DNA from: Chthoniobacterales bacterium | GTDB taxonomy: Bacteria; Verrucomicrobiota; Verrucomicrobiae; Chthoniobacterales; UBA10450 | Direction of reading: 5' to 3' | DNA length: 5,301 nt | Assembly: GCA_003244125.1 (NCBI GenBank) | Contig: QHBL01000145.1 | Span: forward strand, 1 to 5,301 | Shown: positions 2,780 through 5,301 of the stretch, in pieces | Position numbering within the stretch: the stretch's first letter is position 1 | Layout of the letters: each line of letters begins with the position of its first letter | Made by a program: the position numbers and the translations under genes | Notes under the pieces: model-generated | Database searches by the model: none | What the model saw: the letters and a program-made list of their open reading frames with translations, nothing else | Told to the model about the DNA's origin: nothing

Positions 2780-4594
2780 ATGGAGAAACTTGCGCCCGCT
2801 ATTTCGCCGCCTCCCGATATCGGGACGGCCCGGACGCAGAACAAAGCGGTGCTCGATTGGGTGCAATCGGTCGCACGTTTAACCCAGCCGGAAAATATCT
2901 TCTGGTGCGACGGCTCGGAGCGCGAAAATGATTTTCTTCTCGCCGAAGCCATGCGGCAGGGCACCGTCACCAAGCTGAACGAACAGAAGGTGCCGCGCTC
3001 GTATTTGCACCGGAGTAATCCCAATGACGTCGCGCGAGTCGAGCAGTTCACCTTTATCTGCATGCCGACGAAGCACGAAGCCGGGCCGACCAACAACTGG
3101 TTTGAGCCGGCGGCGATGTATCAAAAATTGCACCGGCTGCTGGCGGGCGCGATGCGCGGGCGGACGATGTTCGTCATTCCCTACATCATGGGGCCGCCGG
3201 ATTCGCCGCTAACCAAAGTCGGGTTTGAAATCACCGACTCGATCTACGTCGTGCTCAGCATGCGCATCATGACGCGGATGGGCGCGGTGGCGGTGAAGCG
3301 GCTGGGTGAAAACGTGAACGCCGAGTGGAATCGCGGCGTGCATTCATTGCTCGATGTCAATCCGGAGCGGCGATTCATCTGCCATTTCCCGCAGGATAAT
3401 GCCATCATCTCCGTCGGCTCAGGCTACGGCGGGAACGTTTTGCTTTCGAAGAAATGTCTCGCCCTGCGCATCGGTTCTTATCTCGCGCGCAAGCAAGGCT
3501 GGCTCGCGGAGCACATGCTCATTCTCGGAGTCGAGTCGCCTGAAGGTGAAAAACATTACGTGGCGGCGGCGTTCCCGAGCGCGTGCGGCAAAACCAATTT
3601 CGCCATGCTCATTCCGCCGAAGCATTTCGCCGGCTGGAAAGTGACCACCGTCGGCGATGACATCGCGTGGATGCAGATCGGCGACGACGGCCGGCTCTAC
3701 GCGGTTAATCCCGAGAACGGTTACTTCGGCGTGGTGCCGGGGACGAGCTACAAATCAAACCCGAACGCGATGAAGTCGATCGAGCACGACACGCTCTATA
3801 CCAATGTCGCGCTGAGCGATGACGGTGATGTCTGGTGGGAAGGCAAAGACGGCCCGCCGCCGCAGCACGCGATCGATTGGAAAGGGAACGACTGGACGCC
3901 GGAATCGAAAGAGAAAGCCGCGCATCCGAACTCGCGCTTCGCCACGCCCATGCGGAACAATCCGGTGCTCGATCCGCACGTCGAGGACGGCAAAGGCGTG
4001 CCGATCAGCGCCATCATTTTCGGCGGACGCCGCAGCGATACGATGCCGCTGGTTTTCCAGGCGCGCGATTGGGAACACGGGGTCTATGTCGGCGCGACCA
4101 TGGGCTCGGAGACGACCGCGGCCGCGACCGGCGCAGTCGGCCAGGTGCGCCGTGACCCGATGGCGATGCTGCCGTTCTGCGGTTACAACATGGGCGAATA
4201 CTTCAAGCACTGGCTGACCATCGGCCCGCGACTGAAGAACCCGCCGCTCATCTTTCACGTGAACTGGTTCCGCAAAGGCGGGGACGGGAAATTCCTTTGG
4301 CCCGGCTTCGGCGACAACATGCGCGTATTGCAATGGGTGATTGATCGTTGCACCGGTCGGGCCGGAGCCGCGGAATCGGCCATTGGTCTGGTGCCGCGGC
4401 CTGACGATCTCGACCTGGAAGGTCTCGCCGGCGTCTCCTCCGACACGATGCAGGAACTCCTCTCGGTAAGGCCCGAGGAATGGACGACGGAGCTCGAGAC
4501 GCAGTCGAAATTCTTCGAATCGTTAGGCGAAGACATGCCGCTCGAGCTCATCGCGCAGCACGATAAAGTCGCGGAGCGGTTCGGCCCACAGTAG
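2780..4594 (+). CDS. pckG: Phosphoenolpyruvate carboxykinase (GTP)
   Basis: Cytosolic enzyme converting oxaloacetate + GTP to phosphoenolpyruvate + GDP + CO2, the committing step of gluconeogenesis from TCA-cycle intermediates. The 604-residue product has the normal length of the GTP-specific family and looks intact. Visible motifs: NDVARVE (82-88, substrate-binding arginine R86), RTMFVIPYIMGP (128-139), GSGYGGN (213-219), metal-ligand candidates K224/K225 and H245, the P-loop AFPSACGKTN (264-273) with the reactive cysteine C269, GDDIAW (292-297) with metal-binding aspartate, GYFGVVPGTS (314-323), NWFRK (495-499) and FLWPGFGDN (505-513, guanine-binding region). The start is ATG 2780. It leaves 24 residues before the conserved LDWVQSVARLTQPENI, as in relatives. 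A TTG at 2717 in the same frame would add 21 basic, non-conserved residues and is rejected. No strong Shine-Dalgarno is seen. Transcribed divergently from the membrane-protein gene; a hairpin begins at the stop codon. Confidence 0.97.
   Translation: MEKLAPAISPPPDIGTARTQNKAVLDWVQSVARLTQPENIFWCDGSERENDFLLAEAMRQGTVTKLNEQKVPRSYLHRSNPNDVARVEQFTFICMPTKHEAGPTNNWFEPAAMYQKLHRLLAGAMRGRTMFVIPYIMGPPDSPLTKVGFEITDSIYVVLSMRIMTRMGAVAVKRLGENVNAEWNRGVHSLLDVNPERRFICHFPQDNAIISVGSGYGGNVLLSKKCLALRIGSYLARKQGWLAEHMLILGVESPEGEKHYVAAAFPSACGKTNFAMLIPPKHFAGWKVTTVGDDIAWMQIGDDGRLYAVNPENGYFGVVPGTSYKSNPNAMKSIEHDTLYTNVALSDDGDVWWEGKDGPPPQHAIDWKGNDWTPESKEKAAHPNSRFATPMRNNPVLDPHVEDGKGVPISAIIFGGRRSDTMPLVFQARDWEHGVYVGATMGSETTAAATGAVGQVRRDPMAMLPFCGYNMGEYFKHWLTIGPRLKNPPLIFHVNWFRKGGDGKFLWPGFGDNMRVLQWVIDRCTGRAGAAESAIGLVPRPDDLDLEGLAGVSSDTMQELLSVRPEEWTTELETQSKFFESLGEDMPLELIAQHDKVAERFGPQ
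2812..2825. repeat. 14-bp perfect palindrome in the 5' end of pckG
   Basis: TCCCGATATCGGGA is self-complementary over all 14 bases, 33-46 bases into pckG, in codons for the non-conserved PPDIGT stretch. It could be an operator for a dimeric regulator or a small mRNA hairpin near the ribosome-binding region. A palindrome of this length is only mildly unexpected by chance in a window this size, so function is not established. Confidence 0.3.
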
Positions 4595-4635
4595 CTGTCA
4601 CCGCGAGCCTGCCTCGCCAGCCTCAGGACGACAGC
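4594..4635. repeat. Imperfect inverted repeat after pckG, possible terminator or REP-like element
   Basis: Outer arms GCTGTC (4594-4599) and GACAGC (4630-4635) pair perfectly. Inner arms GAGCCTGCC (4606-4614) and GCCAGCCTC (4617-4625) pair at seven of nine positions around a two-base loop, with an unpaired bulge between outer and inner stems. It starts on the last base of the pckG stop codon, so it could end or stabilise that transcript. No T-run follows, which argues against a classical intrinsic terminator. Read on the minus strand it begins GCTGTCGTCCTGAG, close to the GCTGTCATTCTGAG that opens the repeat inside uvrA, so it may be a degenerate member of the same repeat family. Confidence 0.5.
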
Positions 4636-4687
4636 TTGGAAAGCGTCGGTTTGTTGCAGATTTAACCTGCCTCCCGGATAGTCTCCG

Positions 4688-5301
4688 GTGGTTCCGACAA
4701 AAGCTGAGAAACCGTGCGTGACCGCGCCCGCGGAGCGCGGCTGCGTCGAGATTCGCGGGGCGCGCCAGAACAATCTCAAAGGCATCGATGTCGATCTGCG
4801 GCTCGGCGAATTAACCGTAATCACCGGGCCGAGCGGCAGCGGGAAATCGTCGCTCGCCTTTGACACCATCTACGCCGAAGGGCAGCGGCGTTACGTCGAG
4901 ACGTTCTCGCCTTATATGCGGCAATTCCTCGACCGCATGGACAAGCCGCGCGTCGATGACATTCGTGGCATCCCTCCAGCCATCGCCATCGAGCAGGCGA
5001 ACCCGGTGAAGTCATCGCGCTCGACCGTCGGCACGATGACGGAGATCAACGATTACCTGAAGCTGCTCTGGCCGCGGATCGCCAGGGCCTTTTGCCCGGA
5101 TTGCGGGCGCGAGATCCGACCGGAAACGGCGACGTCGATTGCTGATGAAGTTTTCAGGCTATTTGCCGTGCCGGCTAAAGAAGCGGGGCCGCCCAGCTGT
5201 CATTCTGAGCGGAGTAGAGCGAAGCGGAACGGAGTCGAAGAATCTCTCATCATTCCTGTTGGGCAGAAAAAAAATAGAGATCCTTCGACTTCGCTTCGCT
5301 C
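4688..5301 (+). CDS. uvrA: Excinuclease ABC subunit A (UvrA), N-terminal part, cut by the window end
   Basis: UvrA is the ATP-dependent damage sensor of nucleotide excision repair and loads UvrB onto lesions. The 204 residues visible include VEIRGARQNNLK (20-31), the Walker A loop TGPSGSGKSS (46-55), FDTIYAEGQRRYVE (58-71), the Q-loop region AIAIEQ (98-103), RSTVGTMTEINDYLKLL (111-127) and the zinc-type pair CPDC (136-139), which opens the UvrB-binding region. The start is GTG 4688, with an in-frame stop at 4679-4681 and a weak GGA nine bases upstream. GTG 4718 is the alternative, and no ATG occurs before the conserved core. The variant ETFSPYMRQFLDRMDKP, in place of the usual ESLSAYARQFL, recalls an enlarged UvrA type seen in some Verrucomicrobiota, Planctomycetota and Bacteroidota (from memory). 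From residue 170 the frame is a translated palindromic repeat, not UvrA-like. Whether the gene stays functional cannot be seen here. Confidence 0.92.
   Translation, partial: MVPTKAEKPCVTAPAERGCVEIRGARQNNLKGIDVDLRLGELTVITGPSGSGKSSLAFDTIYAEGQRRYVETFSPYMRQFLDRMDKPRVDDIRGIPPAIAIEQANPVKSSRSTVGTMTEINDYLKLLWPRIARAFCPDCGREIRPETATSIADEVFRLFAVPAKEAGPPSCHSERSRAKRNGVEESLIIPVGQKKNRDPSTSLR
5195..5301. repeat. Palindromic repeat element inserted in the uvrA reading frame (right end outside window)
   Basis: The left arm runs from AGCTGTCATTCTGAGC (5195-5210) to GTCGAAGAATCTCT (ending 5247). The right arm begins AGAGATCCTTCGACTTCG at 5276. Comparing 5222-5247 with the reverse complement of 5276-5301 gives 21 of 26 identical bases, so the arms can form a long stem around a 28-base A-rich loop (5248-5275). 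The right arm is cut by the window; by symmetry it should end near AGAATGACAGCT. Elements with this TGTCATTCTGAGC...GAATCTC core are, from memory, abundant intergenic repeats in Acidobacteriota and Verrucomicrobiota genomes. Here the element lies in codons 170 onward of uvrA, and the frame stays open, giving SCHSERSRAKRNGVEESL and onward. The exact left boundary is uncertain by several bases. Confidence 0.8.

Follow-up and report, generated by a model that had tools for sequence, protein, structure and literature searches.

In-frame palindromes within proteins are best known from Rickettsia. The elements of this genus (RPEs) are dispersed and palindromic, lie in frame in unrelated protein genes and add a peptide to the products; according to excerpts of a 2024 review, a similar process in other prokaryotes is "conceivable" (PMC10969869). 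Intragenic REPs have already been reported for several species, including REPs in uvrA of Opitutus terrae, which belongs to the same phylum as the organism studied here, and different REPs at about one site in recB of two Xanthomonas species; as far as excerpts of that study go, many intragenic REPs are found in replication and repair genes, and chance is doubted as the explanation (PMC3733652). Because the REPs in uvrA of Opitutus are, by these excerpts, in print, the phenomenon as such is known in the phylum Verrucomicrobiota. The present analysis adds a palindrome family with its abundance and a count of how often one UvrA loop is reused; no description of this family was found in the open-licence PMC literature, which is weak evidence of absence.

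The window, i.e. the whole stretch of DNA that was analysed, comprises 5,301 nucleotides of a Chthoniobacterales bacterium. It encodes a CLC channel, a rhomboid-like gene and a GTP-type PEP carboxykinase, followed by the 5' part of uvrA. The features of this last part are:

4688..5301, + strand: 5' part of uvrA (long, tandem-unit, Chthoniobacterales type), cut by the window end; from the open frame and homology
5197..5301, + strand: palindromic interspersed element, in frame (CHSERSRAKRNGVEESLIIPVGQKKNRDPSTSLR...), right end missing; from folding, repeat scan and relatives
5199..5213, + strand: outer arm GTCATTCTGAGCGGA; exact match
5223..5247, + strand: left arm of the inner hairpin; from a focused inverted-repeat scan
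5276..5300, + strand: right arm of the inner hairpin, in which the window ends; from the same focused scan

We are highly confident that in this element one copy of a dispersed palindromic repeat lies in frame within a long UvrA, where it occupies a flexible loop of the UvrB-binding domain.

The uvrA frame starts with GTG at 4688 and contains no stop codon up to 5299, in agreement with a preliminary description made from the letters of the window, and the alternative frame at the left end of the element (TCA TTC TGA GCG GAG TAG) does have the two stops, TGA and TAG, that were named there. The long inverted repeat of that description (21 of 26 arm positions matching, loop of 28 bases) was recovered in the focused scan as inner arms of 25 nt each, which are 84% complementary and enclose a loop of 28 nt; a repeat scan of the entire window with default settings found 37 inverted repeats, and this arm pair is absent among the 25 of them that were listed. 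Although its outer right arm is cut by the window end, the element folds better than 200 of 200 dinucleotide shuffles as DNA (z -4.0) and better than 200 of 200 shuffles as RNA (z -3.9), while the complete homologous element of a relative (L006) reaches a z of -12.8. The window has no match in Rfam at the gathering score, and the element has none in phage records.

The uvrA product of the window matches UvrA chains in the PDB. Its best matches (L001-L030) bear the titles Verrucomicrobia/Verrucomicrobiota, Spartobacteria, Chthoniobacterales or Udaeobacter, with identities of up to 93%, and the match list below them also takes in other phyla; the nearest relatives are soil genomes or MAGs of the Chthoniobacterales (Verrucomicrobiota). 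In a protein alignment of 45 UvrA rows, from which two long proteins were left out, the C, P and C of the CPDC motif are nearly invariant.

A UvrA match was found in 209 of the 213 genomes of the order. Eighty uvrA loci were fetched from the Chthoniobacterales and 64 of them aligned (identity of at least 79.5%, translation of more than 400 aa); 13 of the 16 loci dropped fell below this identity, and three (L113, L119, L120) had translations of 400 aa or less. At the site of the element an insert of at least 8 aa is present in 27 of the 64 aligned UvrAs, spanning 8-70 aa. In the relatives the loop is bounded by ...REIRPETAKSIADQ... before and ...VLITFWV... after, and UvrA resumes past the insert. 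In several of the best-matching relatives the loop insert is palindromic and read as CHPERSEAKRNGVE...RDPSTSLRSAQDD, and others have a short loop; similar inserts occur at the site among the best 120 of 7998 homologous proteins, some of them in another reading frame (SVIPSEVEGS...). The peptide insert that had been proposed as tolerated is thus supported by homology, as similar repeats lie in frame at the same site and UvrA resumes after them. Other relatives lack the insert, and the standard site spacing of 30 is kept in 45 of 79 loci. The window itself ends inside the element, and by analogy with the relatives UvrA would resume past it here as well.

The preliminary description had also considered a recent disruption. 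In this case the palindrome would break uvrA in the organism of the window and would be tolerated thanks to a second UvrA. The window does end within the element, and a second UvrA is present in all five genomes checked. However, none of the 80 fetched loci is broken at the site: 79 are open through it and one stops there at a contig edge. Moreover, the phases in which the left and right arms of the window are translated (CHSER..., RDPSTSLR) match those of several relatives whose UvrA continues past the insert. The open frames of the inserted uvrA genes in the relatives make these genes look maintained, contrary to a disruption, which we regard as very improbable. Of the 79 open loci, five have a stop further downstream; L112 and L127 carry an insert, L086, L105 and L139 do not, and these stops may be real or assembly errors. 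When the insertion of real copies was simulated (13 copies, 45 positions, both orientations), the frame was kept without a stop in 165 of 1170 cases. Given the second UvrA, intact frames could nevertheless reflect a weaker constraint than that on a sole copy. This separate UvrA is 52-54% identical and has a clean site in all five genomes; read as far as the fetched DNA extends, its open frame measures 957-1061 aa in four of them and 487 aa in the remaining one. In three of the five genomes the separate uvrA lies about 7 kb off on the opposite strand of the same contig.

Assemblies tend to break at repeats, and the sequence of the window stops inside one, as would fit a contig end that is a false join of uvrA with a repeat. 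Such an artefact is scarcely credible, because in independently assembled genomes a similar element occupies this position and the sequence continues beyond it.

The effect of the insert on the protein was modelled with AlphaFold2 for the UvrA of L006, using its 357 N-terminal residues and 45 aligned sequences. The insert (about residues 161-210) has pLDDT values of 42-50, and the UvrB-binding domain around it (131-160, 211-330) has values of 84-98, with helix 145-156 and strand 214-222 preserved; the nucleotide-binding part is poor and the overall mean pLDDT is 68.6. With this model Foldseek retrieved the UvrA structures 3uwx, 4dfc (UvrA/TRCF core) and 3fpn (UvrA-UvrB interaction domains), and in the UvrA of 9gxk the loop position corresponds by sequence to residues 160-168 approximately. 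In the predicted structure the domain stays intact and the insert is a low-confidence loop; it lies in the UvrB-binding region, as had been expected from the sequence.

Typing the peptides by eye, we assigned 19 of the 27 loop inserts to the palindrome family of the window. The remaining eight divide into two copies of the GGTAGGGGCGG palindrome, an HLNPLP-type insert, two SAR...RGA-type inserts, a small palindrome and a pair of short scars. Recurrence was tested for 25 of the 27, the other two being of insufficient length; the insert DNA recurs off-site in 22 of the 25 within 1.59 Mb of fetched DNA, and an off-site match is absent from this DNA for three. The folding z is -3 or lower in 20 of these 25 inserts and above -3 in five. 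Exact matches to the GGTAGGGGCGRTTC palindrome of L102/L142 number 15 in G011 and seven in G166, the uvrA copies counted, so that this palindrome too is multi-copy. Two multi-copy palindromes, the family of the window and the GGTAGGGGCGG type (L102/L142), use one UvrA loop. The insert ACATGGGCTTCCAGCCCATG of L005/L092 was also tried as a repeat and rejected, as it has one exact match in its own genome and none in seven others.

The outer arm of the window's family, in the IUPAC form GTCATYCYGAGCGRA, is present in 108 of the 213 genomes of the order with 0-280 matches per genome, and the same pattern written backwards as a control gave one match altogether in these 213 genomes. The exact arm occurs in 17 of 18 genomes of the first set and in 40 of 288 genomes drawn from the phylum, mostly in few copies; 220 arms were found in G477, outside the order. 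A stretch of 400 kb from G004 holds 28 elements, 13 of them paired and 15 single arms. Complete copies are 78-143 bp long (the 13 paired ones of G004 78-131 bp, the L006 copy 143 bp). In G004 in-frame copies lie in three genes with Pfam domains, which encode an isoleucyl-tRNA synthetase (IleRS), a DnaE-type polymerase and a FadJ-like protein. Pfam domains are found on either side of the IleRS copy, and the other two copies lie on the downstream side of the last domain that Pfam recognises. Family arms are translated in more than one frame. In the IleRS linker before the anticodon domain, the window's family was recognised by eye in G004, G008 and G186 (27 of 30 genomes had a match), and other genomes have various other short sequences there. 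This linker (L194:2101-4929; L201-L230) is another reused landing site. ORF spans were also noted in G004 at 250121 and 300904, as was a plus-strand span at 68865.

Comparing the uvrA element with the described systems reveals both common features and differences. Like RPEs, it is a dispersed palindromic repeat that is inserted in frame in unrelated protein genes (uvrA, ileS, dnaE-type, fadJ-like), and the resemblance to RPEs noticed at the outset holds as an analogy, in the sense of "works like". It comes, however, from another phylum than Rickettsia and from soil genomes, and is likened to RPEs by behaviour, not by sequence. Further differences are the use of more than one reading frame for its arms and the convergence of several distinct inserts on a single loop. 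With the intragenic REPs of the GTAG/CGTC families, as far as these are described in the excerpts, it shares the occurrence of palindromes within repair genes including uvrA, in Verrucomicrobia. In contrast to these REPs, the family arm GTCATYCYGAGCGRA is without GTAG at its end, and complete family copies are longer than single REPs of 20-40 bp. As to the CGTC tag, GTCAT is preceded by C in five, by T in four and by A in two of the 11 readable among the 27 UvrA inserts. GTAG is present, though, in the GGTAGGGGCGG palindrome of L102/L142, a possible REP of the GTAG type. Like MITEs, the uvrA element is a short dispersed inverted-repeat element, too short to encode a transposase, but unlike them it is a nearly complete palindrome.

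RAYT-type genes score above the cut-off in 172 of the 213 genomes, both with and without the element. The arm, with at most one mismatch, was found in two of 20 RAYT loci, which included up to about 1.5 kb of flanking sequence, in one case about 190 bp from the gene, and in none of 30 RAYT loci from six element-holding genomes, for which the density of G004 predicts about nine arms. Both sets, which have three loci in common, represent a subset of the RAYTs. The RAYT gene flanked by the repeat, as known from REPs, was not seen as a rule in these 20 and 30 loci, and the data lend no support to a mobilisation by RAYTs of the kind known from REPs.

The presence or absence of the loop insert needs at least 15 changes on the 64-tip tree, compared with a mean of 20.3 (range 14-25) for shuffled labels; this is a quick tree with the insert columns excluded and 14 of 61 forks open, on which parsimony cannot separate gains from losses. 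Sister pairs have inserts in common, and the pattern is near random overall, so gain or loss must be frequent. By path the window, which covers 20% of the columns, is nearest to L082, followed by L141 and L138.

Variation is not confined to this loop. Other UvrA linkers vary likewise, in particular those after residues 257 (34 of 64) and 615 (29 of 61) of the reference L091, and an apparent copy of the window's family follows residue 865 in L082. In a number of genomes variable repeat-like inserts were observed in the linkers after residues 257, 615, 865, 1042 and 1637 of the same reference. The long UvrA contains a second internal unit, which is 41-45% identical to the query; complete-looking frames (L081-L160, L231-L245) are mostly about 1,850-2,200 aa long and include such a unit.

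The use of one loop by the window's family and by another multi-copy palindrome could also mean that the peptide or the hairpin was recruited to tune UvrB binding or the uvrA mRNA, the loop being a favoured target, and the doubts about chance raised for intragenic REPs in replication and repair genes (excerpts of PMC3733652) point in the same direction. The sequence and length of the loop insert, however, vary freely among the relatives, many loci keep the standard spacing as given above, and the similar variation of the other UvrA linkers and of the IleRS linker looks like tolerance. We consider an adaptive insert quite improbable. A wider proposal, which seems rather unlikely to us, is that the long tandem UvrA, backed by the second UvrA, serves as a landing ground for unrelated palindromes, with several linkers colonised repeatedly and in parallel, and that the inserts may tune UvrB hand-over and the mutation rate between lineages. 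If this were true, such a UvrA would be a natural insertion-tolerance experiment.

For the in-frame copy of a dispersed repeat, which is the reading we prefer, the following course of events can be envisaged. Family copies would be spread by some mobilising activity, would land regardless of function and would persist within a gene only if their length and phase preserve the frame and a disordered linker receives the peptide. The uvrA of the window would then presumably continue in frame and yield a functional UvrA that carries an additional peptide at its surface, and the second UvrA may further relax the constraint on the inserted one. The in-frame palindromes described here affect a DNA-repair protein and a tRNA synthetase of soil Verrucomicrobiota, and close relatives with and without the insert are at hand. 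Gain, loss, frame selection and the tolerance of new peptide segments therefore become countable in the Chthoniobacterales.

A further, degenerate inverted repeat is located upstream at 4593-4636 (AGCTGTCACCGCGAGCC...CAGGACGACAGCT), covering the end of pckG and the gap before uvrA. Its arms of 19 nt match by 74%, and it looks like a decayed relative of the uvrA element.
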